Shown here piece after piece: positions 1 to 35,607 of a stretch of 64,000 bases of DNA. The DNA comes from Candidatus Woesearchaeota archaeon (GTDB lineage: Archaea; Nanobdellota; Nanobdellia; Woesearchaeales; JAFGLG01), in NCBI GenBank assembly GCA_016928155.1, contig JAFGLG010000009.1:123688-187687 (forward strand), in the 5' to 3' direction. Position 1 is the first letter of the stretch. Every line of letters begins with the position of its first letter. The notes below the pieces were generated by a model. That model did no database searches, had not been told where the DNA came from, and was given only the letters and a program-made list of their open reading frames with translations. The position numbers and the translations under genes are program-made.

Positions 1-1
1 C

Positions 2-235
2 AGAGAAACCTTAGAATTAAGCGGATTGTCAGAAGAAATTTTAGTGACACAAAAAGATGATGAATACATAATTAATTTCTTTACAAAAGAAAGGTCAAAG
101 ATAGCAGAAAAAACAGGGAACAAATATCTCATACAACTTAATGAACAGATAGATTACCAAGACGGCGGATTCATAACATTGTCAGAGAGAGAGATTAAGC
201 AAGGCGAGGTAAGAAATGCAACAATATATTATTAA
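2..235 (+). CDS. C-terminal fragment of an ABBA-type (LynF/TruF/PatF-like) prenyltransferase paralogue, cut by the window edge
   Basis: The reading frame is open from the left edge to a TAA at 233-235, so this is the 3' end of a longer gene; the first possible start inside the window is a TTG at 26. The last 70 residues align by eye with the C-terminus of the broken gene at 2457-3253: both have an acidic strand followed by 'I(A/L)xKxGN', then an amphipathic stretch ending in R-x-x-x-YY (RNATIYY here, NREYAVYY there). LynF/TruF/PatF peptide prenyltransferases, as I remember them, also end in a Tyr-rich strand. The gene converges on the FAD/toroid gene and their stop codons overlap. The family assignment is borrowed from the better preserved paralogue. 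Whether this copy is intact cannot be seen. Confidence 0.5.
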   Translation, partial: RETLELSGLSEEILVTQKDDEYIINFFTKERSKIAEKTGNKYLIQLNEQIDYQDGGFITLSEREIKQGEVRNATIYY

Positions 236-2358
236 TATTTCATACCTTCTAATTTCTTCAGAGCAAGCTCGGCCCAAGCAGAAGTGATCCTGCCCTTGTC
301 CACACAATCATAAAAGCACTTATCATGCCCATCATCAAACCAATAATAAAGAACAGGCTCACCTTTCCAACCATCAGCCCCCTTCTTCGAAATAAGCCAC
401 CCCTTTGCCCTTTCCTGACTTGCCTCGCCCACACCTAAGCAATTCAATGCCAAGACCGCAGCGGAGGTATCAATAACTGAGCCATTCCAGCTGCCATCAT
501 CCTCCTGGGTATTAAGAATAAACTTTCCGGCCTTATCAACACTATCATGGAACCCCAAATCATGGAGCAACCTGACAGCATAAAAAGTGGTGATCATAAG
601 AGAAGGAAACCATTTGCCTCTCCAAAATCCCTTAGACTCCTGAGAGGATGCCACAAAAGCTGCACAAGCCTTAATCTCTGATGAAAAATTATCAGGGGAT
701 ATCTTGTTAAGAAGATAGCCAATATGCGCAGTTGCATCAATTGAAGGACCTTTCCAGTAAGGCGCCCTGCCTTTCTGTGTGGTAAGAAAAGCTCCGTGCT
801 CAACATTGTAAAATAATTCCTTAAGCCTCTGTAAGCTGTACTTCAAAAAAGCCTTATCTTCACCGAACTCATACAAGCCTTCAATAACCAAAGCACTATC
901 CTCGGCAGTGACACCAACTCCATGCTGGTACTCCCACAAACCATCTTTAGAGATATATATCAAATAATCTCTAAGAGAAGCATCATGATTGGCCTTAAGA
1001 ATGAGCCCATAAAAAGCTATGTCGCCTTCCTCCTTTGTGCAACGATAGACCGGCTTGTCTGCCATATCAAACACAGAAGCTCTCACCAGATAATCTGACC
1101 TAAACTTGGAGCATACATCTTCCCTCTCAAGATACCTCCTGACACCCCTGCCAGATATCTTACCAGCATTGAGGGCTGCCCTCATGCCATAAGGCATCAT
1201 GGAATCAACATCAATGTATTCCCCAGAAATGAAAATCCTTTCAGAAGGCCTCTTCACCTTACCTATATCCTCTTTCATCCTCAAAAAACTCTCATCAATC
1301 ACGGGGCCCACAAAAGGCCAATAATGCACATCAGAAAAAACCAGCACTTCTCTCCCTACAGGACCTATATTCAACTTGGAAAGGCAATCCGACGATGTCT
1401 CTGTCAGCTTATCCTCAGATAAACATCTCACACCCTCACATTTCTCACCAGCAAAATACACAAGAAACAAAGTATGGTCAGCTTTCCTCTGCTGCATCAC
1501 AGTACTTGAAGCAAGATCAGGGGTGACAATGTAAGAAAAATCCTTGAAATCCACGTCCTTAAAACAAAGAGCGACAACAATGCCTGAGCCATATCCCAAT
1601 GATGCAAGCAGTGAATCAGGAGGTTTATATCCCACCAGATCTGCTGCAATAGGGGCAGGAACTGTGATTATGACCGCCTTTGCGAAAATGGATCTCACTA
1701 AACCATCGTTATCAAAAATCACCTGGACATTGCCCCCAAATTCCTGGACCAAAAGGACATCAGCTGAAAAATGAATCCTATCCTTCAATACATCCATAAA
1801 ACCATCAATCACTATTGAATTCCCAGCCACACAGTAAGGTGATGAGAAATTGACAAAGGCATCACCCTGCCTGATAGGCAGATATTCTCTGATATCACCT
1901 GGGTGGATGACCTGAAAAAAGGAATTCAAAATCTTGTACAAATTATTAGGAAGATTGCCTGCAGATATCTTGCCAGACCTGAAATCATCAATTATTCTCA
2001 TATCCTCTGGATCTAAACCAATACCCCTTAAACAACCCAAGACAGAATCACTGAAAAAAACAGACCCTTTATGCAATATTCCAATATCCTTTGAGGATGG
2101 CAACACCTTACATTTCATATCAAAAGGCACCCACCTCTTATCAAAAGCAAAAACAGAACCCAAATCATAATAAATCCCATGCTGTGAGCGAGTCAATATC
2201 CTGCCACCTGGGACCAGGGCCTTCTCAAGAACAAGAATCTCTTTGTCCTTCAACTCAAAAGCGGCATTCAAACCAGAAAGACCTGCGCCGATAATAACCA
2301 CATCATAGACCCTGCCTGGATCAATCTGACTTGAACATAGAGCATTATTGATTTTCAT
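232..2358 (-). CDS. FAD-dependent amine-oxidase/phytoene-desaturase-like oxidoreductase fused to an alpha/alpha-toroid (terpenoid cyclase-like) domain
   Basis: Two domains in 708 residues. The first ~410 form an FAD oxidoreductase of the amine oxidase/carotenoid desaturase type: a Rossmann dinucleotide motif GAGLSGLNAAFEL near residue 24, an acidic ribose-binding residue in VLEK, an arginine-rich PGGR segment, and a late FAD-contact motif GEY..D...PYGMRAALNAG near 376-396. Residues ~420-708 look like an alpha/alpha toroid of the prenyltransferase/squalene-cyclase repeat class, with repeated [G/F]W...D.[TS]A..... helices and a QW-type QEDDGSW; I see no canonical DxDD acid motif. ATG 2358 is preferred to the upstream TTG at 2382: an AATAAATATT box (2381-2390) lies ~27 nt before it and GGGGG directly precedes it. 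It is flanked by two prenyltransferase-like genes, hinting at isoprenoid or prenylated-product chemistry; substrate unknown. Confidence 0.75.
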   Translation of the reverse strand: MKINNALCSSQIDPGRVYDVVIIGAGLSGLNAAFELKDKEILVLEKALVPGGRILTRSQHGIYYDLGSVFAFDKRWVPFDMKCKVLPSSKDIGILHKGSVFFSDSVLGCLRGIGLDPEDMRIIDDFRSGKISAGNLPNNLYKILNSFFQVIHPGDIREYLPIRQGDAFVNFSSPYCVAGNSIVIDGFMDVLKDRIHFSADVLLVQEFGGNVQVIFDNDGLVRSIFAKAVIITVPAPIAADLVGYKPPDSLLASLGYGSGIVVALCFKDVDFKDFSYIVTPDLASSTVMQQRKADHTLFLVYFAGEKCEGVRCLSEDKLTETSSDCLSKLNIGPVGREVLVFSDVHYWPFVGPVIDESFLRMKEDIGKVKRPSERIFISGEYIDVDSMMPYGMRAALNAGKISGRGVRRYLEREDVCSKFRSDYLVRASVFDMADKPVYRCTKEEGDIAFYGLILKANHDASLRDYLIYISKDGLWEYQHGVGVTAEDSALVIEGLYEFGEDKAFLKYSLQRLKELFYNVEHGAFLTTQKGRAPYWKGPSIDATAHIGYLLNKISPDNFSSEIKACAAFVASSQESKGFWRGKWFPSLMITTFYAVRLLHDLGFHDSVDKAGKFILNTQEDDGSWNGSVIDTSAAVLALNCLGVGEASQERAKGWLISKKGADGWKGEPVLYYWFDDGHDKCFYDCVDKGRITSAWAELALKKLEGMKY

Positions 2359-2427
2359 CCCCCAACCATAAGTATAAATCAATATTTATTAAGATTACTG
2401 GCTTATATCATTCCAAATCCAATAACC

Positions 2428-2435
2428 TATATAAA
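2428..2435 (+). promoter_or_regulatory. TATA box of the prenyltransferase-like pseudogene
   Basis: TATATAAA is centred 25-26 nt before the ATG at 2457, the spacing expected for a leaderless archaeal transcript. The promoter looks intact although the coding region is broken. Confidence 0.6.
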
Positions 2436-2456: not shown

Positions 2457-3253
2457 ATGGATGAGTGGCAAGAAAAAATTGAATTCCACAAGAAGATCTT
2501 CAAGATAGAGCCAAATAAAATACTGGAACAATTTGAAGACCTGATGAGATCATCAAAAGCTCTTAATTTAGAATGCTCATACAAGATTGGGGAAAAAATC
2601 CATGCAACAAGGCTCATTGCATTATGTCAAGATGTCAACAGACAAAACCCCCAAGTAATATTTGATACATATTTCAACTACATAAACAAATTATCGGAAT
2701 CCGGAGCAAAAATCAACCTTAGCCTTATAAAGGGCATATTTGGAAAAATATCGACCTAAACAAGATACATAAGGTTTTCTTAGGAATAGATTTAAAAGAA
2801 GAACTAAAAGAAAGCAGAGTGTAACTATATTTCAAGATATACAATTGGCCAGAAAAAATAAGCAAATTAATTGAAATATCACAATTCCGGGAAGTTTACA
2901 CACATAAAGAGCTATTATTTGGGATAGATTTCAAATTTGACGGCACAACAAAACTAAAAGTATATCCTGATCTAAGCAATGAAGTGATACTAAACATAGT
3001 CAGAAACAGGATAGGCCGAATACCAGAAGAGATAGAAAGCCTGATGAATCAGAAAATGCATATAACCCCAAGAGATGGAGATATGATACTGGCTTTTAAG
3101 ACAGACAATACCCTTGAATTAGCAAAAAAATTAGGGAATCAAAAACTCATGGAAATGCAAGAAAAAAACTGTTCAAAATATAAACAAGTGATAATCGGAT
3201 TCAAATTGAAAGAAATAAAAGAAAAAAACAGAGAATATGCTGTGTATTATTGA
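2457..3253 (+). pseudogene. Broken LynF/TruF/PatF-like ABBA prenyltransferase homologue
   Basis: Frame 3 reads 100 residues from ATG 2457 (FHKKIFKIEP..., LECSYKI, INLSLIKGIFGKI) to a TAA at 2757. The same protein continues in frame 2 from about 2750 (DLNKIHKVFLGIDLKEEL) to a TAA at 2822, then on to 3253 (LYFKIYNWPEKI, FGIDFKFDGTTKLKVYP, terminal NREYAVYY). The joined ~265-residue product follows the order of motifs I recall for cyanobactin prenyltransferases PatF/TruF/LynF: a 'Q.AF..EP' start, 'EaSCKI', 'GVKINYSLL..FLG', 'GIDLR..L..SSLK..IRIKDYPEKL', 'GFDFYF.GRSEIEIY'. One missing base near 2750-2753 and one AAA(Lys)-to-TAA change at 2822 would explain both lesions. Sequencing error could cause one of them. 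The family is recognised from memory, not by search. Confidence 0.6.
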
Positions 3254-3270
3254 TCAAACTTCATATCTAA

Positions 3271-6200
3271 TCACAAAAACTCCTTCATGACCTCATCAAC
3301 CTCATCCCTTGACCAACCCCTGCTGATCAGGACAGCCCTGATATGGTCGGGGTTGAAGCCTTTGGTGTAGAGATCAAGGACAGATGAGCGCGCAGCACCC
3401 ATATCCTTAGGATGACCGAAGAGACCATGCTTATCAAGCTCAGAATCGATGCTCTGATGCATGCCTTTCATTGCTTCATCAATCATCTCAGGCTTCCAGC
3501 CGCAGTTGATCAAAGCTGTCCTGAGCTGCTGCTCAGTAAAACCATTCTCCCATAAGGACTCATAGACCTGAGGCAGGCCTTCCTTCAATGCTCCGGATGA
3601 GGAAGGCTTTGAAAGCCGGGCAAATGCGATATCAGCATAAAGCCTGTCCATCACCTCTGAAAAAGCCTTGACAATGGTTTCTCTCGGATAACCCATCCTC
3701 AAAAGCACAGGTATTATCATCTTCTCAGTGTCACCCTTATGCCAGTTGGCCCTGAAAAACTTCTGCAGAGTGTGAGCAAGCTCCAGCTCATCATCAGTGG
3801 CCTTGAAACCATGCTCCTTGACCCCTCTTTCCAGATCCGATATCATCATGAAGACATAATCCACTTCCTGAGGGCTCCAGCCATGCATGACAACAGCCTT
3901 CCTTATCATGTCCTCCTTGAATCCAGAAGAGAGCTGCTGATATATGTAATTGAAGAGCAAAGTCACTTCCCTCCTGACACCTGCCAGAGTCACGGCAGCA
4001 CTGCCTGCTCCGGGCTTTGCAGCTGCCAGAGAAGCCGGCGCTTTATGGAAAATCTTCTCCCTCTCAAGATAGACCCCCACTCCTGCGCCAAGCAGAACAA
4101 TTATCAGTATCAATATTATTATCGGCCAGAACCAGCTGAATCCTGAAGGAGCCTCGACAACCTGGCAAGGCCTGCAAGGACCGCCACAATCAACACCAGA
4201 CTCTCCCTGATTCTGGATACCATCAGAGCATGAGACCTTCGGAGCACAAGCAGCACATGGGCCGCCACAATCAATGCCTGACTCACCCTGATTCCTGATC
4301 CCATCATAGCATGTAGCTGCAGGAGCAGGCAAATCAGAACATGGCTGGCATGGACCGCCACAATCAATGCCTGACTCACCCTGATTCCTGACCCCATCAT
4401 AGCAGGATGGGGCTACAGACGGAGCCTTCGGAGCACAAGCAGCACATGGGCCGCCACAATCAATGCCTGCTTCCAACTGGTTCTGGATACCATCAGAGCA
4501 TGTCGGCCTGACAAAAGCGCTTCCGCCGCCTTTCAGGACAAGAGGAGAACCCCCCTTCATTACCAATGGAGAACCACCAGTAGACTGCTGGCAATCCGGA
4601 TCATCTGAATCTATGTATCCATCAAAGTCATCATCAATCCCATTAGTGCATTTCTCAGTGACTGAATTGTCGAACACCAAAAGGAATGCAGACAATGAAT
4701 TTACATTGACAGCGAACTGGCCTGAAGAAACAAGAGTCGTGGGCGTCTTCCTTGAGGCATAATCCACAGTACCATTATAATCAAACTGCCAGATCTTATA
4801 CTTAGATGAATCCGGGTATGAATCATTATAGAAGCCTAGTGTGAATGGCTTCGTGAATATGGACTCATTCTCCACAGAGAACTCAGCTGCATCAACCGAG
4901 GAATATCTCAATCCAGGCCCAAGCAGCATGGAACTGTTGGCAAAAGAGGAAGCAGCCATATCATTCACAGTTATATTGGGAGTCATGGAAGATGCGACAT
5001 TCTTCATGTACAGGTATGACCGTCCATCAGCGCTCACAATCCTGAGATTGTAATTGCCGCTGGCAGGCACAAAGAACTCATTCTTACCTGAGACTGCAGT
5101 AAAAGGCGAGCTTGGAAGCTCTGCGTCTGTAGTCAGGTTAAGGACATGGACAGTGGCAGTCTGATCGGTGTTTATTATTATGCTTGAAGCGCCGCAATCC
5201 GAGACTGAAAATGATGCAGTATCAGTGACCCTGTTGCCCTGAGAATCATTGGCCCAGAAAACAACATTATAACTGCCGACAGGCAAAATAGGTATGCCTG
5301 ACACAAGGGTATCATAATAAGCATACTCATCAACAATAACACCCAGCGGAACAGGCCTTGGAGTGAAGAATGAACTGTCCAAGTAGGCTTTGAGAGTCCC
5401 TGAAGATGTTGATATGTTCGCATGCAAAGAGATATCGTACAGTGTCCTAAGACTTGCCACCAATGTGAGATTGTCACCGAGACAGATGCTGGAATGGACT
5501 GTGCTGAAATCATAAAGCGCGAGAGGCGAGGTGCTGTAGATGAATGAAAGATTCCTCGTGTCAGTGCTGAAATTGACATACCCGACTGTCTCATGGCCGA
5601 AGTCAGTCACATTGACCGGATAAGATCTCAGTCTCGTGGCATTTGTGTGCACTATCGGCAGTATGGCATGACCATCTGAATCAGTCACACCGACAGAGGA
5701 AGCAAGCGCAACATTCCTATCAGGCACAGGGCCTGAAGTGCTGTTAATCAGCCTGAACGGATAATACCTTGTTACAGTCGATGTGGCAGGCCAGCGCAGC
5801 AGGCTGTTAATCAACATGCCACCATAGAGCGTTATGTCAGAGTTCTCAGCAACAAACAATGACAATCTTGAGTCTGATGCATTGAAGACAGACACACCGG
5901 ACATGTTGAGCAGGTTGAAATAAGAATCCTGCGATGACATATATGAATCTGAGGTCAGGCGCACATTATTCAGAGTGGAAGAGGCCATCGAAGCCCTTGA
6001 ACCTGCAAAGCCGATGTAATTATTCGGAGCAGTCACATTGATGAAGAAAATATTAGCACCCGCCTGGGCCTGTATGAGTGCAGATTGTATGGCCTTATCC
6101 ACACAGATGACAGTCCTGTCTATGTTCCATACACCAGCAGGATTATTGCAGTTCAGATCGCCCTGCTCGAAAACCAGCGGTGTCGAGTTCAGGAAAGTGA

Positions 6201-9200
6201 ACTGGCCCAGATAGATCGAGGATACATTCACCCTGAATGCATCTGCTATCGAATCATTTGTAGTGACAATGACAGGCCTGATATAACCATCTGAGTCAGT
6301 CACCCCTGTCTTCATGACAGACGATGAGTTATAGACCTTCATGGTGACCCCCGGCAGAGGATTCTGCCTGCCCGGTGTCATGAGCCTGATCGGATATGCC
6401 CTTTCCACAGATGAATTAGGCCTGAAACTGACTGAACCGAAAGCCAATGAACCCTTCAGGAAAACCCTTGCCCCATCCATGACACTGAAGCTGCCAAGCG
6501 TGCTCTGCTCATAGGATTCGACTGATGATGAAGAGTGCATATTGACATGGCTGAAAACTGAACCACCCATATAGACCACAGATGAGCCATATGACCTGAG
6601 AGCATCAAGCGAAGAGCCGACAACATAAGTCCTGGAATCCATGAATGAATGGAGATTCACATGTGACACATCAGACCCGCGGATATCCAGCCGGACATTG
6701 CTGCCAGGAGAGTATATATCCTGTATCGTGAAAGTGACATTGCTTCCGGATGATATATTATCAAAGAGCAGGTCCTTCCTCTTCTCGGAATACACAGTCA
6801 GGTCAGCAAGGGTGGAATTCACCACATAATTATTAGAGGCCTGCCTAGCAACCAGCTCAAGCTCCCTGAATGTCGTATTACTGAGATAAGCATGGAAATG
6901 ATCATTGGTGAGGTTCCTGTCAACGTCAGTGAAATCATTGAAATCCATCAACCCGAAATAATAATTGTTCCCGTTCTCCAGGATCAGCCTGTTGAAGCTG
7001 ACATTATCCAGCCTCAGTGTCCCTGAATCAGACACCCTGAAATTCACATTACCTATATCTGTATCGGACAGATTAGCAGACAGGCTTGATGAGGATGAGC
7101 CTATCTCATCAGTGACCACGGAATTATGGAAATCCTCAAGCACGATGTTGTTGTTGCCATTGGAGTCTATCGTAAGATTCCCTATTGTCGAGTTGACGGC
7201 GATGAGCGTGGCATTATCAGCCAAGAGGACATCTGTGAAATTAGACCTGATGAATCTGGCATAAGCGCTCCCGACAATCTCCACATCAACTGTTATGTCC
7301 TCATCGACACAGAGAGCCAGGGTGTCTATCACCCAAGGATCAGAAGACGGAGAGCATGGACCTATGCCGAACATGCCGGTGACCCACGGCGTGCCATTCA
7401 CAAAGAGGTCAGCAGGCAGTATCTTCACCCTATAGCTGAATGACGGCTCAACTGATGAAGTGTCCCAAACATAGGTGTACTGGCCGGATGACGGCTGACC
7501 TGTTATGGCTGTAATGTTAGTCCATGTAATATTATCTGCCGAATAGAACAGATAGAAACTAGCCGCATCTGCATCAGGATCAGTATAATTCCATCTTATC
7601 GTAACATTGTCCGAATAAATCCGGCCTACAACAGGAAGATCCACACCCGTGATATTCGGGGGCAAGTTATTCGCGTTGACCTGCATCACAATATTTGTCC
7701 TTGTGATGTTATCTGTGACAAGCACATAAGCAGTCCTCGGATAGGAATCAGGATAAGAGCAGGCAATGGCAATATCGGCATTGTCTGAACCGGTCGGGAT
7801 CAATGCAGTGTCCCACTCAGGCAGGCCATGGACATCACAGTCATACCTGTACCATATATCATCAGAATCAGCATCCCAGACAGTCAGGTTCAGCCAGACA
7901 TCCTCCCCTGGCAATGCAGGCCTGGCATTTGTGACACTGCTCTCAATGTAAGGCGGGGCGTTGCCCACAGGCATCAAAGTCGAATTCTCATATGTAAGAT
8001 CCTGATTTGAATAATTATCTGCGGGAGAGACAGCGCATTTCAGGGTATCATCCTTCCTGAAGATGAAACTGTTCCTGTTAGCTGCAGTCAGGGGAAAGTT
8101 GAAAATGGTGCGGTTTGTCTGGCCAGCCATCAACTGGTAGCTGCCGGCTGTCCTATTCAGCTTATACCACATGAATAAGGCGGCGGATTCATCCTCAAGA
8201 TCCCCGTCAGGATCAACATAATCATACTTGCACTCGAAAACTGACACTGAAGACATCTCAGAGACGACAGTGTCCTGGCCATAATTGGCAAATGAAGTGC
8301 GCCTGATATCCCCGGTAGAGACCTCATAATCATTGTCTAGGTCTGCATATAACGGCTCACCGTCATCAAACACACTGTCCTTGTCCTTATCAAAATACCT
8401 GTCAAGCTGATGGAAAGCCAAAAGCAGACCAGCTCCCGGGGTGCCTGAGACAATATTGTCTCCGCCGAACACAATTGACCCGGCACCATATTCCGGATCA
8501 GGATCATAAAGCCTGATATCCCCTGCTGAGACATCGCCTGACTCATCAAGGTCATTATATATCGGCTCATGATCTGAATAAGTCGCATTGATATACGGAT
8601 CTATGGAATTGACAAAACCGACAGTATAAGCAAATGACTTCAGAGACGAGCTTACATTTATTATGCAACTCAGAGGGAAAACCTCCTCCCCGGCATCATA
8701 CCTGAAGTTACCATTTGTATCAGAGACGATGCAGTCTCCAGGGGTGTACACGCCGGTCTTGCTGCTAGGATAATATTTCTGATCAGTCGACTCAAATTTG
8801 ACCAGAACTACACCGATATCTGAATCCGGAGGATCATAAACACCATTGGAATTTGAGTCAATCACAATCAGCTCCCCGCCTGTGTAGTTGCCGCTTGAAT
8901 CCCCATCGACATACCTCTCAACTGAGAAGCCGCGCAACGGGAATCCTATATCAGTCCTGAAATCAGAATCAGGGAAGAGCTCTTCCTGGCTCTCATAAGT
9001 GGCAGGTCCGATCCTGACATTGGCCGCGTCGGGCGCATGGTTTATCGAGATGTTCTTCGACATCACATCACAGACACCTGAAACACTGCACAGGCCGAAA
9101 TAGACTGTAACATCATCAAATTTGGCGAAATTCGAAGAAGTGCAGTCAGGCCTTGATGCGTTTGTCGTGCCTGAAGGCGATGGGGCATAGCAGAACATAT

Positions 9201-12200
9201 GATTCTGGCCGCAGCCATCATCAAGCGTGATATTGGGGCTATCACATACATACATCACGAACCTTGTAGCATAGTTCGCAGACCATTCAAGAGAGAAGTT
9301 CAGGACCTCGCCGGTATTGAACAGAGTATTGTTGTCATACATGCCAAATCCTGACAGAGTCCTAACCGATGTGTTTGTGATCCCAAAATGATTGGCCGGG
9401 ACCGGGACAGCATTCGGCACTGAATCCTCCCATGTGGTGTTGAACCCGTCATAAGCAGAGACATTGCAAGTCCAATTCCACCCCAATGTGAGCCATGATG
9501 AGGTCAGCTTCTGGGCAGCCGGGGGATACTTGGTGCCGTTCAGATACCATGTGAAGTTTATCTGGAGAGGATCGCTGTCTGCATCAACAGCTGTGTAATT
9601 GCAGATGTAATAATCTGTGTGATTATCCAGCCAGACATCCAATACAGGCAATGCATTCTGGATCACTTCAACTGATGAATTATAGAATATGGAAGACTTC
9701 AAACCATAAACATCCTTAGGCTTCACACCGCAGAAAACAGCATCATACCTGCTGAACTTCTGCGTCTGCTGATTGCTGAGTGTCGAGGCATTATAAGGCA
9801 GCTTATTGAAGACACCATTATTATCATATGATATGAACCACCCGAATTCTGTCTGATGATCATCCACATCCTGGAAAATGGTATCAGAGCTGTTATAATC
9901 ATAGCTGCAGTTCAAGGTGGTCCCGGCATCAAAGTAGTAAGGATCAACGACCGATGAATCCAGAGCAGTCATGTTGAATGGATTTGACTTAGGCTCATGA
10001 TTCACATAGAAAACATCATCATAATTGCCTGAGCATTCATTATCCTCATCACAGAGCATCATATAATATCCCTGGGACCCATTGTCAGATGATCTTGTGG
10101 TATAATTGAAACTTATTGGATATGCAGAAGCAAGGCTTCCCTGATAGATAGTGCGATCTATGCAGCCTGTCGGCTGGATAAATGGGGAATCACAGACAAT
10201 CAGCCTGACCTCAGAGCCATCATCCTGCCAAAAGACATCGAAAGGCAATACAGAACCCTCATTCCAGGGATTATAGAATGTTGAAGGCTCATAAACAAAT
10301 GTGATGCTGGGTGTTGTCGTCGCCGGAGGCACATCAGAGATGTTGAGAGTGCCAGATGATGCACTGTGGCCATAAACCCATTCATCATGGGGTGTCACAG
10401 AACAATACCACTGGTCGCCTATCTCTATATTGCCATTTGTCATGATGCTGTAATTCCTGGACAGATTCGTGTTGTCATAGCTGAAATACAAGCCGAATGC
10501 GGTGTCAGAAGCACGCTTCACGAACCAGTCAATCCTGAACTTCGAGATATTGCTGTCCGGATCTGCTCCAGTATAGCTGCAGTTAAGGTTATCAGACTCC
10601 AGATACAGCAAGTCCCCATTCATGTCTGTTATGCTGACAGATGTCGTGTTCGGCCTCTGATTATAAAAAACACTCCCCCCAACCCATGTGAGACCAGAAC
10701 ACTCATAGCTTTCATCACAGACAATAACAGTATAATTCTCTGAACCGGCTGAACCGAAAGGAACAGTGTAAGTCGCTGTAATCGGATCAGCAGAATCCAG
10801 GGCATGAGACTCATGGAAAGTTCTGGCCTTGCATCCAGAAGCGAAAGCGCCCTGACTGTCGCATATATACAAATAGACAGCATCGTTATCCTCATCTATC
10901 CAGTCCACTGTAAAGGTTATGTTCTCATATTCGCTGGTCATTGATGCATCTGACGACGTGTCTGTAACCTTATGAACCCTGGGCTTGCCATAATCATTGG
11001 CCACAAGATGAGCGGCAGATGAATTAACTGGGGTCCCGGAAGACCATGCATCTGAAGGAGTTGCTTCACATACCCAGTAATCACCATACAAGGTGTTGCC
11101 ATGCGACAGGTATTGGGTATTGGCAGTATTGTAGAGCACATAACCACCAGCACCCCTCTTCAGATACCATCTGTAGGTGATGCCCAATTTTGTTGAAGCA
11201 TTATCATCCTGGTCAGCCAGTGTGACGCTGCAGTTCAGGTTGTCAGATTCATTGGCTCCTGACGGCAAGATCTCAATTGACTGGACCTGCGGCTGATGAT
11301 TCACAGTGAAGTTGCCCATTGATTCTCCTGGCAGTGTCTCAAAATTAGAGCAGAGCCAGTTGCCACCAACCTTGCCACCTGTGTCATCACAGATCATGAT
11401 CCAATAATGCATAGTACCATTGTCAGATGGCTGGACTGTATATTCAAGCTCGAGAGTCCTGTCAGATGTCCAAGCCTGATAGACATACTGTGAACCTGGG
11501 TACAGGCAACCGGTCTTGTCGATGGTCGAGTTAGAGCAGATATATACCTGGACCTGCTCATTCGGGTCAGCATCATCTTCCCACTCGATGCTGAAAGTGA
11601 CCTTGTCGCCCACATTAGTCCTGCCGACAGAATCATCAGAGTAAGAGACAATGTAAGGGGCTAATCCTCCCTGGCCATCATCTGTGGTGATAGTGACCCA
11701 TGGAGTTGAGTACTGGTCACCATAGACATGATCATCGAAAGGAGTGATGCGGCACTGCCACTGGTCGCCGGGTAGGGTGTTACCGTGCGCAACATAAACA
11801 TGACTCGGAGCCTGATACGGATATTCCTGGCCATTCCTTATTACATACCATAAGATGTCAGATGTGACATTGTTCGGCCATTCTGCATCAGTCACATTCT
11901 GCACTTCACAGAAGAGATTCGAGTAATCAGGATAAGTCGAAGGCCTTGAGATATAGGTTATGTTCAATGAAGGATGAGTGTAAGTCGATCCATCCTGCGC
12001 GATGTACAATGTCCTCTTGCTCCCCAGTATCATCCTCGGCAGATAAACATAATAGATGCCCCTATCTGTCGTCAAAGTCAGTATCTGGGGCTTGGTTGTG
12101 TTGGCTGTCACAGAGACAGAAAGGTTGCCATCATCATTCTTCTGGTTCAGGTCATAGAAGAACAATGTATCATCCATATAACCAAGACTGTCCGATGAGC

Positions 12201-14178
12201 CTCCCCTTGACCAGTTTATATACAACCTGCCTCCTGATGATAATATTCCTGTGGTCTCATCTGTTGACATGAAAATCAAGTCCTGAGCAAGCAATGGCTG
12301 GACCTGCCTGTAGAACGGATAAGGCATGATCCTCAGGCTCCCGACTGTAGGCTTCATGTTGATGCTGAAATTGTCATGCCATGGAACAGAGCACTGGCCG
12401 CTGGAATCACAGATCGCAGCCCAATACTCTATAGGTGACCCCGGGTCTGAAATATTCATGTGCGGCTCATCCCCAACAACAGTGTAAGTGCAGGAAACCG
12501 GGGTGGATCCTGAAAATGGGGATTCGCAATAAGCGTGGCCGAACTGGCACCCTGAGTGGGTATAATTCTGCCGGAATTCCTTATCGCAGATGACAAGCCT
12601 TGCATCCTGATTATCAGAATCTGACCAGTAAGCAGTGAACTCAGCCTTCTGCCCCACATTAATCCTTGCACTGTCAGAGCCATCAGAGTTGTCCACGAGG
12701 TTCCAGAGATCAGGCCTGTGATTACCTCCCACAACAAAGACAGAAGACCATGCATTCTTGGAATCATCATGGAAATGATGCTCATCCCAGACTGACACCC
12801 TACAACGGATCCTGAAGCTGATATTAAACTCAGAATCATCCAAGACATTAAAGGGTGAAGTAAAATTCCTTACCAGTACATCATTCTCATCCTTAATCTC
12901 CCACCAATAACCGCCAAGTGTATGTACAACCGGGCCACCCTCATCATCGCCATCCTTGTCATAGAATGTGTAATTGCAGTAAAGATCTGTGTATGTGTCT
13001 GCATCCTCAGGGGTAATGTGTACATCCTGCGCTTCAGGTGCGTGATTCACAACATACTGATCATTGGATGTCGTCATGCTATTATATATCTGCGACCAGG
13101 TGCCGAAATAATAATCCCTGAACCTCACATAATAAGTGTTGAGGGGATCATCATCCTCCTGAGCAGTGTAGAGACAATAGCCACACCCATAAGGACAGAG
13201 GAACTGCATATAATCATAGCTGCTATAAGGAGGACCGAGTTCGCAAATCATGCCTGAGTCATCCTTTATAGTGCACAGGCATCCTGATTGGTCAAGCTCA
13301 TTGCACCCTGCACAGTTGGATTCCTTGCAGAAGTAGACCTCTGCATATGAATAAGAAGTCCAGGAAGCCTGGAACCTTATCTCATCTGAGACATTCGTAT
13401 AAGGAGCGCCAGTATCATTATCAAAAGATGAGAGTGTTATCCCAGTCACAGGGGTATAACCATAGCAATCTCCTCTCCAGCCGACCTTATCATTCGGGTT
13501 ATCACAGCAGACAGTTATGTTCATGACATTGGGCGCTGTAAGATTAGTCGGCGTGCCATTTATCACACTGCCTGTCTTCAGATATTCACCTGCATCATCA
13601 CCGCAGCATTCCAAATCAGTGCCTGTATCATACTCACCAAAGATGTGATTCTCAGAGCCATTGACCCAGGCTCCCGCATAGTCACAATAATTCACACCTT
13701 CGCAAAAGTTAGCACTGTTATCACAATCATACCAATCATTCACAGAACAGGAAACCCTCTCTCCTGAAAATGTGTATGATAAACCGCTCGTGTAACATAC
13801 ATCATTATGGACACAGTCGCTCTGATTATCACAGCAGGCATCATCAGAAGGATCATCACCCTGCACCCTGATCCCCGGGTAGTCATTCTCTGCAACACAA
13901 TGGCCGAATGTCTTCCAGATATATGCTTCCTTATTGCCGGAACTGAAATTCCCGCAGCATCCTGGCTGGCCACCGGAGCCGACTTCCCAGTCAAATTCAT
14001 AATATGGGTCAATGACGCCTCCATCCCAATACCAGTCATGATTCTCACAGAATTCCTCATTGCCATCTTCTGGAGTCAGCATTTCATATTCTTGAGCAAA
14101 AACTAAAGGTATTATCAGAAGAATAATCAGTAATGCATACCACAATTCAACCTTCCTGCCGGTGTTTGCCTTTCTCAT
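3271..14178 (-). CDS. Giant 3635-residue modular surface protein, C-terminally membrane anchored with a cytoplasmic helical-repeat domain
   Basis: A signal peptide ends near VFA|Q (residue 28). Then follow: a Cys-rich segment to ~240; many Ig/PKD-like beta modules to ~1740, recognised by repeated 'VNH.P' joints and 'F..EW.DD.....VYIC' cores with paired cysteines; calcium-loop segments at ~1746-1960 (YVDGDSSGNY, DLDESGDVSAGDI, DKDKDSVFDDGE); a long parallel-beta-helix-like stretch (~2290-2820) rich in N-S/T-x; four copies of a ~30-residue C.DG..N..E.G.DCGGPC repeat (~3223-3343); one membrane helix (~3346-3368); and ~265 cytoplasmic residues with repeated 'GW....V...M' helical hairpins. Dozens of N-glycosylation sequons fit an exported protein. 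It overlaps the AbrB-like gene by ATGA, so the two are translated together. Function is inferred as adhesion or S-layer-like contact, with the inner domain possibly binding cytosolic partners. Confidence 0.85.
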   Translation of the reverse strand: MRKANTGRKVELWYALLIILLIIPLVFAQEYEMLTPEDGNEEFCENHDWYWDGGVIDPYYEFDWEVGSGGQPGCCGNFSSGNKEAYIWKTFGHCVAENDYPGIRVQGDDPSDDACCDNQSDCVHNDVCYTSGLSYTFSGERVSCSVNDWYDCDNSANFCEGVNYCDYAGAWVNGSENHIFGEYDTGTDLECCGDDAGEYLKTGSVINGTPTNLTAPNVMNITVCCDNPNDKVGWRGDCYGYTPVTGITLSSFDNDTGAPYTNVSDEIRFQASWTSYSYAEVYFCKESNCAGCNELDQSGCLCTIKDDSGMICELGPPYSSYDYMQFLCPYGCGYCLYTAQEDDDPLNTYYVRFRDYYFGTWSQIYNSMTTSNDQYVVNHAPEAQDVHITPEDADTYTDLYCNYTFYDKDGDDEGGPVVHTLGGYWWEIKDENDVLVRNFTSPFNVLDDSEFNISFRIRCRVSVWDEHHFHDDSKNAWSSVFVVGGNHRPDLWNLVDNSDGSDSARINVGQKAEFTAYWSDSDNQDARLVICDKEFRQNYTHSGCQFGHAYCESPFSGSTPVSCTYTVVGDEPHMNISDPGSPIEYWAAICDSSGQCSVPWHDNFSINMKPTVGSLRIMPYPFYRQVQPLLAQDLIFMSTDETTGILSSGGRLYINWSRGGSSDSLGYMDDTLFFYDLNQKNDDGNLSVSVTANTTKPQILTLTTDRGIYYVYLPRMILGSKRTLYIAQDGSTYTHPSLNITYISRPSTYPDYSNLFCEVQNVTDAEWPNNVTSDILWYVIRNGQEYPYQAPSHVYVAHGNTLPGDQWQCRITPFDDHVYGDQYSTPWVTITTDDGQGGLAPYIVSYSDDSVGRTNVGDKVTFSIEWEDDADPNEQVQVYICSNSTIDKTGCLYPGSQYVYQAWTSDRTLELEYTVQPSDNGTMHYWIMICDDTGGKVGGNWLCSNFETLPGESMGNFTVNHQPQVQSIEILPSGANESDNLNCSVTLADQDDNASTKLGITYRWYLKRGAGGYVLYNTANTQYLSHGNTLYGDYWVCEATPSDAWSSGTPVNSSAAHLVANDYGKPRVHKVTDTSSDASMTSEYENITFTVDWIDEDNDAVYLYICDSQGAFASGCKARTFHESHALDSADPITATYTVPFGSAGSENYTVIVCDESYECSGLTWVGGSVFYNQRPNTTSVSITDMNGDLLYLESDNLNCSYTGADPDSNISKFRIDWFVKRASDTAFGLYFSYDNTNLSRNYSIMTNGNIEIGDQWYCSVTPHDEWVYGHSASSGTLNISDVPPATTTPSITFVYEPSTFYNPWNEGSVLPFDVFWQDDGSEVRLIVCDSPFIQPTGCIDRTIYQGSLASAYPISFNYTTRSSDNGSQGYYMMLCDEDNECSGNYDDVFYVNHEPKSNPFNMTALDSSVVDPYYFDAGTTLNCSYDYNSSDTIFQDVDDHQTEFGWFISYDNNGVFNKLPYNASTLSNQQTQKFSRYDAVFCGVKPKDVYGLKSSIFYNSSVEVIQNALPVLDVWLDNHTDYYICNYTAVDADSDPLQINFTWYLNGTKYPPAAQKLTSSWLTLGWNWTCNVSAYDGFNTTWEDSVPNAVPVPANHFGITNTSVRTLSGFGMYDNNTLFNTGEVLNFSLEWSANYATRFVMYVCDSPNITLDDGCGQNHMFCYAPSPSGTTNASRPDCTSSNFAKFDDVTVYFGLCSVSGVCDVMSKNISINHAPDAANVRIGPATYESQEELFPDSDFRTDIGFPLRGFSVERYVDGDSSGNYTGGELIVIDSNSNGVYDPPDSDIGVVLVKFESTDQKYYPSSKTGVYTPGDCIVSDTNGNFRYDAGEEVFPLSCIINVSSSLKSFAYTVGFVNSIDPYINATYSDHEPIYNDLDESGDVSAGDIRLYDPDPEYGAGSIVFGGDNIVSGTPGAGLLLAFHQLDRYFDKDKDSVFDDGEPLYADLDNDYEVSTGDIRRTSFANYGQDTVVSEMSSVSVFECKYDYVDPDGDLEDESAALFMWYKLNRTAGSYQLMAGQTNRTIFNFPLTAANRNSFIFRKDDTLKCAVSPADNYSNQDLTYENSTLMPVGNAPPYIESSVTNARPALPGEDVWLNLTVWDADSDDIWYRYDCDVHGLPEWDTALIPTGSDNADIAIACSYPDSYPRTAYVLVTDNITRTNIVMQVNANNLPPNITGVDLPVVGRIYSDNVTIRWNYTDPDADAASFYLFYSADNITWTNITAITGQPSSGQYTYVWDTSSVEPSFSYRVKILPADLFVNGTPWVTGMFGIGPCSPSSDPWVIDTLALCVDEDITVDVEIVGSAYARFIRSNFTDVLLADNATLIAVNSTIGNLTIDSNGNNNIVLEDFHNSVVTDEIGSSSSSLSANLSDTDIGNVNFRVSDSGTLRLDNVSFNRLILENGNNYYFGLMDFNDFTDVDRNLTNDHFHAYLSNTTFRELELVARQASNNYVVNSTLADLTVYSEKRKDLLFDNISSGSNVTFTIQDIYSPGSNVRLDIRGSDVSHVNLHSFMDSRTYVVGSSLDALRSYGSSVVYMGGSVFSHVNMHSSSSVESYEQSTLGSFSVMDGARVFLKGSLAFGSVSFRPNSSVERAYPIRLMTPGRQNPLPGVTMKVYNSSSVMKTGVTDSDGYIRPVIVTTNDSIADAFRVNVSSIYLGQFTFLNSTPLVFEQGDLNCNNPAGVWNIDRTVICVDKAIQSALIQAQAGANIFFINVTAPNNYIGFAGSRASMASSTLNNVRLTSDSYMSSQDSYFNLLNMSGVSVFNASDSRLSLFVAENSDITLYGGMLINSLLRWPATSTVTRYYPFRLINSTSGPVPDRNVALASSVGVTDSDGHAILPIVHTNATRLRSYPVNVTDFGHETVGYVNFSTDTRNLSFIYSTSPLALYDFSTVHSSICLGDNLTLVASLRTLYDISLHANISTSSGTLKAYLDSSFFTPRPVPLGVIVDEYAYYDTLVSGIPILPVGSYNVVFWANDSQGNRVTDTASFSVSDCGASSIIINTDQTATVHVLNLTTDAELPSSPFTAVSGKNEFFVPASGNYNLRIVSADGRSYLYMKNVASSMTPNITVNDMAASSFANSSMLLGPGLRYSSVDAAEFSVENESIFTKPFTLGFYNDSYPDSSKYKIWQFDYNGTVDYASRKTPTTLVSSGQFAVNVNSLSAFLLVFDNSVTEKCTNGIDDDFDGYIDSDDPDCQQSTGGSPLVMKGGSPLVLKGGGSAFVRPTCSDGIQNQLEAGIDCGGPCAACAPKAPSVAPSCYDGVRNQGESGIDCGGPCQPCSDLPAPAATCYDGIRNQGESGIDCGGPCAACAPKVSCSDGIQNQGESGVDCGGPCRPCQVVEAPSGFSWFWPIIILILIIVLLGAGVGVYLEREKIFHKAPASLAAAKPGAGSAAVTLAGVRREVTLLFNYIYQQLSSGFKEDMIRKAVVMHGWSPQEVDYVFMMISDLERGVKEHGFKATDDELELAHTLQKFFRANWHKGDTEKMIIPVLLRMGYPRETIVKAFSEVMDRLYADIAFARLSKPSSSGALKEGLPQVYESLWENGFTEQQLRTALINCGWKPEMIDEAMKGMHQSIDSELDKHGLFGHPKDMGAARSSVLDLYTKGFNPDHIRAVLISRGWSRDEVDEVMKEFL

Positions 14179-14465
14179 ATCACATCAAGGTTCCCTTTCT
14201 TCCTTCTCCTGTAGCTCTGCACAGAGGCCTCCAGATTCTTCTTGCTCATCCTGATCCTGTCAGCTTTCTCGAAAAGCTCTGGCACTATCTTCTCATCTGA
14301 CTCGAGATCATGCGGACTTATCTTCTTCAGGAGAATTCCCTCATCTGAAATCGAATAAACATAGAAACCTGTACCTTCGTCTATATCAAGCTCAGACCGT
14401 ATGTCTTTCGGGATGACGATCTGACCCCTTGCGTCTGCCTGCACTATCTTTGGGTATCGCTTCAA
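14175..14465 (-). CDS. AbrB/SpoVT (swapped-hairpin) family transcriptional regulator
   Basis: 96 residues. The N-terminal ~50 carry the AbrB/MazE-like signature 'V.ADARGQIVIPKDIRSELDID.GTGFYVY', a DNA-binding swapped-hairpin beta barrel; the rest is a charged helical tail. Translation appears to start at TTG 14465, behind an AATAGGGG Shine-Dalgarno-like run; there is no better ATG. Its TGA overlaps the ATG of the giant surface-protein gene, so it is the first gene of a two-gene operon. The upstream region holds a cluster of CTGA-N3-TCAG palindromes, and autoregulation of the operon is the simplest inference. It could also be an orphan antitoxin-like AbrB, but no toxin is adjacent. Confidence 0.8.
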   Translation of the reverse strand: MKRYPKIVQADARGQIVIPKDIRSELDIDEGTGFYVYSISDEGILLKKISPHDLESDEKIVPELFEKADRIRMSKKNLEASVQSYRRRKKGNLDVI

Positions 14466-33987: not shown

Positions 33988-35607
33988 TCATCTCTGGTCC
34001 TGGGCAAGCCTGACCTCTTTGCCATACTTCCTCTTAGCCTCTTCCAAAACCTTTTCTGTCTGAAGCTCAGCACCGATCCTCTCAAGAGCATAATCCTTCT
34101 TATCGACACGCAGATATTTCGCCAACAAAGGGAACCTCTTCTCGATCTCCTCATGGCATCTAATGGCAATGCGCCTGTATGAAATATGACCCTGCTGAGA
34201 AGACCTTATCCTGATGAAATGCTCAAGCTCTCTCAAGTTCCATGTAAAAAGAACCCTCTTCCTGAAAGCAAAAGGAACAACATACTGGGCCTCGTGAGGA
34301 TGCTTCTCCCTGATCCTCCCAAAAAGGGATCTGGACCTCTCCATCAGATCCCTGAAACGCCCCTCCTCCCCGATCTCAGAAATCTCTGACGGGACATCAT
34401 AACCAAGGTCAGCATTGAATAACTGGCTTGTCTGAGTGCACATCCTGTGACGCTGGATGTCCCTGAAAGCACCGTAATCGACCACGATATCCATAGTAAA
34501 ATAAGCATGCTCAAGAGCCCTCAAGGGATAATCAAAGAACTGCATCCTGGACATGTATTCGTCTAAAATCCTCTCTTTTGCAGCCTGATCAAGCTTATCA
34601 ACATACTTCCTTATCTGACGATAAGAAAGATTAGTGTATTCATACAAGATCGCGGTTATTATCCTCATGTCTGGATCAGGATCGCACCCGACAATATCAA
34701 CATCAGACCCGACAACAGGACTCGTGCCTTCAAAAATATCATCAGACAAGGACATCATTGACCTGTTTGTCTCATCGATATACTTGTTGAAGAGAGCAAA
34801 CTCCAGAAGAGTGGGACATATCTTCCTGCCTTCCTCAAGCATCCTCCTGCCTATATCCCTTATCTCAGACAAGGGATGAGAAAGAAATTTTGTTATCGCC
34901 CTTGAAGCCACACGGGCATTGAAGCTCATACCCAGCATGCTATAAGAAGAAGCCGGCAGGATGTACCGCAGGATATCACAGACCTTTGCCTTGACAGAAG
35001 CCTCATAAGGCCTGTCCTTCATATCATCAGGCTTGGGATTCTTCCTCTTGATATGCTCAGTCATGACCGGTATCAATTCCTGATAGAAAGCAAACAGAGA
35101 CCCCATCAAATCCAAAAAATCCTGCCTAAACTCAGAATCCATGATGACCGGATCCTTGTAGAAATGATTGAAATCAAAGATCTGATACCTTGAAGATTTC
35201 TCAGTATACCGGCCAAGCCTGTTATCCTCAAGCACCTTAGTCGCTATGATAGAGACATTCTCGACCGCAAACTTCAGGTCAGCGTGCTCAGCAACAGAGC
35301 TATGACCATAACCGACAACCCATTTATCATGGAACTTCTGCGCCTTCTCTTTCGCCCCTTCAATACCTTTTGCATCATCAGAGTAAATGTCCTTGACCTC
35401 GTGCACATCAAGGTCCCCTGAACCTATCAAATTTATCAGATTCCTCCTGAAAGAAAGAGGGCTCCTTGAGACATAAGCAAAGAGAACAGCAATGACCTCT
35501 TCAGGCAGGTTCTTGATGCAATAAATATCCTTATCAATATTAGTGACGTGCTTGGACAGAAGGGACTTCTCCTCTCCAGAGAAGGTCTCTGCATTAGAAG
35601 GGATCAT
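33988..35607 (-). CDS. thyX: Two-domain (tandem) flavin-dependent thymidylate synthase ThyX-family protein
   Basis: 539 residues, about twice a ThyX subunit (~220-250). Half 1 has '[23 protein letters not shown]' (GH.S..EH, ~95-115) and [13 protein letters not shown] (~131), where usual ThyX has RHR-x7-S-xRY; the RHR is replaced but S..RY remains. Half 2 has [31 protein letters not shown] with the RHR (~386) but no following SxRY, and '[24 protein letters not shown]' (R.S..Q.H...R) as in ThyX. Motifs are split between halves, suggesting a pseudodimer. It should methylate dUMP with methylene-THF and FAD. The start overlaps glyA by 4 nt, with AGGGGGT inside glyA. Confidence 0.8.

Follow-up and report, generated by a model that had tools for sequence, protein, structure and literature searches.

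Evidence for recent inactivation of a duplicate ABBA-barrel peptide prenyltransferase gene in a Woesearchaeales archaeon

The window analysed here, a 64-kb stretch of DNA from a Woesearchaeales archaeon (genome G000), very probably carries at positions 2457-3253 the remains of a peptide prenyltransferase gene of the ABBA (alpha-beta-beta-alpha) barrel type (PF19156, cyanobactin-PT-like), a second copy that was inactivated recently. The relic is not an orphan, since the window opens inside an intact paralog that was absent from the preliminary description of this DNA, and with this sister copy lying about 2.2 kb away a prenyltransferase is probably still made in the archaeon. Taken alone, the relic is an unremarkable pseudogene of recent date; it matters because it leads to an intact archaeal enzyme, to the family and to a link with the His-Xaa-Ser (Hxs) radical SAM system. 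Peptide-prenylating enzymes have so far been known mainly from bacteria, and the present candidate resides in a small-genome archaeon of the Woesearchaeales. ABBA-type prenyltransferases were described from bacteria and fungi (PMC7253389), and our literature search found no report of an archaeal peptide prenyltransferase.

The relic and its intact paralog

The features at the start of the window are listed with window positions and strand.

1..235 (+): 3' end of the intact ABBA paralog, comprising its final 77 complete codons plus the stop, and locally 33% identical to the relic (E=1.2e-27); whole gene at G000:C9:123143-123922
232..2382 (-): 716 aa fusion between the ABBA genes, with an N-terminal FAD amine-oxidase-like part (PF01593, E=7.7e-13) and a C-terminal squalene-hopene-cyclase-like alpha/alpha toroid (PF13243, E=4.2e-9)
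2427..2435 (+): TATA-box-like CTATATAAA, 22-30 nt 5' of the ATG at 2457, a spacing that, judged from the sequence, suits leaderless archaeal transcripts
2457..3253 (+): inactivated ABBA peptide-prenyltransferase-like gene (relic), by matches to PF19156, TIGR04445 and the PDB sequences FjoF, PagF and LimF
2744..2748 (+): A5 run with a frame change of -1, as the loss of a single base would cause; the stop of the +0 frame follows at 2757-2759, and the next family motif, NIDL..LGIDL, lies in the -1 frame
2822..2824 (+): in-frame TAA replacing, according to the alignments, the Lys of the SRxK motif; this Lys is invariant in 10 of 10 aligned relatives and equals K119 of the intact copy

Re-reading of the sequence reproduced the coordinates 2457-3253, the frameshift and the TAA at 2822 of the preliminary description. 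The +0 frame is open for 100 aa from the ATG at 2457 to the TAA at 2757-2759 and reads MDEWQEKIEFHKKIF...INLSLIKGIFGK. The net -1 shift is located at or beside the A5 run, and the -1 frame, which runs from about 2744 as far as the stop at 3253, reads NIDLNKIHKVFLGIDLKEELKESRV, the TAA at 2822-2824, then LYFKIYNWPEKI...GIDFKFDGTTKLKVYP...REYAVYY and the terminal stop. The open stretch after the TAA measures 142 codons, against a maximum of 141 when this sequence was resampled 2000 times with a first-order Markov model. The family motifs named in the preliminary description are present as ECSYK, GIDLK..LKESR, WPEKI, GIDFKFDG..KVYP and the YY end, and they align with solved members and intact relatives. 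Given the TATA-like box at leaderless spacing, the relic promoter may survive. The predicted product is a 100-residue stub comprising about two of the ten strands, and because the SRxK, GxDF and C-terminal motifs are missing it should be inactive.

The joined translation of the relic (frames merged, X at the stop) passed the PF19156 (DUF5838) profile with E=1.9e-20 and 73.9 bits (gathering cut-off 28.8) and matched TIGR04445 with E=2.3e-22 and 79.8 bits, not reaching the curated cut-off of 140. Among PDB sequences FjoF (8.8e-21) and Fl3F (1.1e-20) were the top matches over nearly the full length, followed by KgpF, PagF (8.2e-17), SmiF, DciF, LimF (about 3.5e-15) and PirF, whose matches mostly covered the N-terminal two thirds. 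The strong profile and PDB matches exclude a chance resemblance to the ABBA family and bear out the identification of an ABBA prenyltransferase relic. The intact paralog likewise scored 69 bits against TIGR04445 (cut-off 140). Since both G000 copies fall below this cut-off, they are to be placed in the wider PF19156 / ABBA F-type family and not in the certified LynF/TruF/PatF subfamily; the original assignment to the LynF/TruF/PatF type thus stands for the family and lapses for the curated subfamily (79.8 and 69 bits versus 140).

A search of the genome with the joined relic protein matched an uninterrupted second copy at G000:C9:123158-123892. The gene has 259 codons (259 aa) and starts 545 nt before the window. 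FjoF and Fl3F are the top sequence matches of both G000 copies, at full length and with E values from 1e-20 to 5e-23. The AlphaFold model of the intact paralog, computed with a seven-sequence alignment (pLDDT 87.4, pTM 0.85), displays ten strands in five beta pairs (hairpins) with helices between them, which is the ABBA layout. Foldseek matched the model to KgpF (1.2e-15), LimF (1.8e-15) and PagF (4.7e-13), and the VIA ranking placed KgpF, DciF, PagF, LimF, PirF and PatF first, with Z from 25.9 (KgpF) to 22.3 and superpositions on the peptide prenyltransferases of rmsd 2.5-3.0 over 253-259 residues; other ABBA enzymes followed at Z 14.9 and below. The ten-strand barrel expected in the preliminary description is therefore seen in the model of the intact paralog, with which the relic aligns end to end.

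All ten sequences compared share eight residues of the intact copy (E40, K44, R54, D108, R110, K119, Y169 and E246); the relic has Lys at the position of R110 and the stop at that of K119. The conserved charged and Tyr barrel columns of the intact copy are presumably diphosphate-binding or catalytic residues. In addition, a polyprenyl diphosphate synthase is encoded in the G000 genome.

Age of the loss and origin of the gene

In a tree of eleven sequences the relic and the intact copy are sisters (support 90/87) with about 30% identity. The terminal branch of the relic (1.27) is not longer than that of the intact copy (1.63), which points to a recent loss, the function probably persisting next door. 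In a gene of this kind about 5.6% of single substitutions create a stop, hence a single stop plus a single indel are compatible with a brief period since the loss. Of 23 near-invariant columns the relic keeps 19, and the four departures are F76Y, R110K, K119stop and N254E in the numbering of the intact copy. Recent decay and sequencing errors had been offered side by side in the preliminary description; recent decay is the more probable of the two.

That both lesions are sequencing or assembly errors, so that the archaeon in fact has an undamaged gene here and two working prenyltransferases, we consider improbable. The frameshift is a single-base change inside the A5 run, and single-base changes in homopolymers are a common type of long-read error; the second lesion, by contrast, is a substitution and not a homopolymer indel. 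Retention of most conserved residues, the modest branch length and the TATA box still in place would also be expected of a working gene, yet an otherwise invariant Arg is altered in the relic as well (R110K). Moreover, two errors would have to fall within 0.8 kb of a window in which 16 ORFs of at least 400 codons are unbroken over 36.4 kb, and this argues against a high base-error rate. The lesions were read from the assembly, and G000 is the sole member of its family among the genomes compared, which leaves some probability of an error at one or both positions. Programmed -1 frameshifting to a full-length product was rejected as a very remote prospect: the shift does have the -1 direction and lies on an A-rich run, but no canonical slippery site (X XXY YYZ) occurs in the required register, the downstream RNA folding is unremarkable (z -1.39), the other intact archaeal copies detected all lack a frameshift, and a shifted product would itself run into the TAA at 2822, which belongs to the -1 frame, and end at about residue 122.

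The archaeal host named in the preliminary description agrees with the gene content, since DP1, DP2 and PCNA are encoded in the same 64-kb window and mark the contig as archaeal. The family is carried by 5 of 352 Woesearchaeales genomes, namely G000, which holds the window, and G048, G220, G426 and G493. The G426 copy passes TIGR04445 with 146.5 bits (cut-off 140), and the G493 copy scores 113.9 bits against PF19156 (cut-off 28.8). A weak match in G088 (E 9.9e-4), short and C-terminal only, was not accepted as a family member. The two ABBA genes of G000 have a GC content of 0.32 and 0.36, versus 0.47 in the two large genes flanking the block, and the low GC together with the rarity in the order fits an acquisition from outside. 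In the tree the archaeal copies and FjoF cluster (98/95) apart from the cyanobacterial and acidobacterial sequences, with thin bacterial sampling, as a narrow-pattern contig scan yielded only three loci. The viral contigs searched contained no relative, and the plasmid search gave no match to FjoF and none to the 716 aa fusion.

In the scenario we propose, the archaeon probably obtained an AT-rich member of this family from an outside source, and an ancient duplication followed. The copy at C9:123143-123922 would have stayed intact, and the copy at window positions 2457-3253 would have gone out of frame and acquired a stop codon in place of the conserved barrel-strand Lys.

The surroundings of the block hold further genes. 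Very large, probably secreted or surface proteins flank the ABBA/oxidase block (3635 aa, window 3271-14178, minus strand; 3053 aa, L006:5376-14537, minus strand), and large surface-type proteins are also found close to the ABBA genes in G220 and G493. A small MazE-type protein (window 14175-14465, minus strand) is encoded directly upstream of the 3635 aa gene with a 4-base overlap, and a 539 aa protein (window 33988-35607, minus strand) has two stretches matching ThyX (Thy1), perhaps as a tandem-domain form.

Genomic context and possible substrates

In four of the five Woesearchaeales carriers the ABBA genes share a contig with Hxs-type components, and two further loci, both outside the window, are needed below.

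L037:6764-10128: His-Xaa-Ser cluster of G000, with a prepilin-peptidase-like protein (by eye), HxsD, HxsD-like NF038315, HxsB and an HxsA3-like repeat protein ending SDSHGNGGWF
L024:6713-9730 (G493:C27): 1005 aa fusion with UPF0004 and Radical_SAM domains and an ABBA prenyltransferase C-terminus

HxsB above the curated cut-off was found in five of five ABBA carriers versus 49 of the 352 genomes of the order (P=4.4e-5; P=3.1e-4 when two carriers of the same genus count once), a test with five carriers in which phylogeny is handled at the genus level only. With these 49 genomes, the Hxs system is not rare in Woesearchaeales. On shared contigs, HxsB and the ABBA gene are about 2, 5, 12 and 25 kb apart in four genomes; in G426 the ABBA gene lies on a 3.7 kb contig and HxsB on a different one. 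The G000 set is located at about 94.8-98.1 kb of C9, 25 kb from the ABBA pair, and its HxsB (443.8 bits, cut-off 370), HxsD (50.2, cut-off 50) and HxsD-like NF038315 (55, cut-off 41) all passed; a 116 aa HxsA-like protein (L037:9778-10128) scored 34.8 bits against NF038309 (HxsA3), below the cut-off of 65. HxsB is also encoded on the ABBA contigs of G493 (455.8 bits), G220 (462) and G048 (443; cut-off 370 throughout), each of which carries in addition an HxsD or HxsD-like protein and a prepilin-peptidase-like protein, the latter call being Pfam-tested in G493 and made by eye in the other genomes. HxsD exceeds its cut-off in G220, too, and the ABBA contigs of G220 and G048 also encode a His-Xaa-Ser repeat protein together with an HxsC4-like radical SAM protein. 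In G220 the ABBA gene is divergently oriented to a gene whose 661 aa product has a radical SAM domain and, at the C-terminus, a flavodoxin-fold domain (L025:7121-9106, G220:C7). Outside the archaea, an Acidobacteriaceae ABBA gene is found near a candidate Nif11-type precursor (29.7, below the cut-off of 32.3) and an NHLP export ABC transporter above its cut-off; judged by these neighbours, that locus is a RiPP setting, too.

From this linkage, there is close to an even chance that the substrate of the enzyme is a peptide, with an Hxs product as the likeliest candidate. The intact enzyme would be expected to hold an allylic diphosphate within the ten-strand barrel via the conserved Arg, Lys and Tyr residues and then to pass the prenyl group to a peptide side chain. 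In the mechanism described for the family, the barrel-bound allylic diphosphate ionises and the cation is attacked by the peptide side chain (PMC13290415). More tentatively, some Woesearchaeales might combine the ABBA prenyltransferase with the Hxs radical SAM system to make prenylated peptides or surface proteins in a RiPP-like DPANN pathway, this locus being one where one of two copies has just been lost. If true, such a pathway would have the prenyltransferase and radical SAM modules joined in one polypeptide in G493. To our knowledge, a prenyltransferase is no described part of the Hxs system, and our literature search returned no report of one within it.

The gene between the two copies suggests a different route, in which the intact enzyme and its neighbour would prenylate, oxidise and cyclise in a meroterpenoid-type pathway independent of Hxs. 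This is unlikely in our view, and so is the narrower idea that the FAD/cyclase-like protein works after the prenyltransferase. The intervening gene does join an FAD oxidase-like to a C-terminal squalene-hopene-cyclase-like domain, the latter matching the PDB chains 8pak/8paj (squalene-hopene-cyclase-like, about 360 residues), and a precedent exists in NctPC, where an ABBA prenyltransferase and a one-domain terpene cyclase are naturally fused and carry out Trp geranylgeranylation and then cyclisation (PMC13290415). However, the fusion gene and the intact ABBA gene are convergent, their 3' ends overlapping by 4 bases, and do not form a single operon; a full-length homologue of the fusion was not found among 117 relatives, where matches were confined to the Rossmann part; and the acidic motif is only partly kept (SIDA versus the cyclase DxDD, by eye).

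It is more doubtful still that the enzyme prenylates a small molecule instead of a peptide. The ABBA fold is common to small-molecule prenyltransferases (Z 13-15), but both sequence and structure are far closer to the peptide prenyltransferases (Z 22-26 versus 15 and below), and the neighbours of the ABBA genes in the relatives are peptide-modifying radical SAM enzymes.

Comparison with known prenyltransferase systems

The best full-length matches of the G000 copies, FjoF and Fl3F (PDB 9vtb, 9vta; LynF/TruF/PatF-like), nevertheless share only about 30% identity with them. No usable description of FjoF, Fl3F, SmiF, DciF or DUF5838 was found in the literature search. With KgpF, PagF, LimF, PirF and PatF, the G000 enzyme shares the ten-strand barrel (Z 22-26) and the ECSxK, R, GIDLR, SRxK, GxDF..DG and YY columns. 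In contrast to these common features, the cyanobactin prenyltransferases are only 15-23% identical to the G000 copies, which stay below the TIGR04445 cut-off, are hosted by an archaeon and have an Hxs context in a genome with no YcaO match. YcaO cyclodehydratases are part of patellamide-type cyanobactin pathways, not of all cyanobactin pathways. A search for YcaO (PF02624) gave no match in the G000 genome and detected its positive controls; a patellamide-type pathway is thus unlikely, and a cluster of this type was rejected. Hence the cyanobactin setting in which these enzymes are mainly known does not carry over to this archaeon, and the family is linked to a His-Xaa-Ser radical SAM system instead.

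ABBA prenyltransferases outside cyanobactin pathways include the MppC-type lanthipeptide enzymes and NctPC (PMC12715784, PMC13290415). They resemble the G000 case in lying outside these pathways, and a cyclase-like domain is encoded beside the G000 copies; in NctPC the cyclase is fused to the prenyltransferase, whereas the cyclase-like domain of G000 has an FAD oxidase-like domain as its fusion partner.

The Hxs radical SAM system (TIGR03976, TIGR03978) goes back to Haft and Basu, as cited in PMC9062424. The archaeal loci share with it HxsB and HxsD above the curated cut-offs (G000 and G220) as well as the HxsC4-like and His-Xaa-Ser repeat proteins of the relatives. They differ in the presence of a prenyltransferase and in their DPANN archaeal hosts. 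An intact, well-folding archaeal ABBA member that recurs near an Hxs-type system provides the latter with a concrete, assayable candidate modification and would extend peptide prenylation to DPANN archaea.
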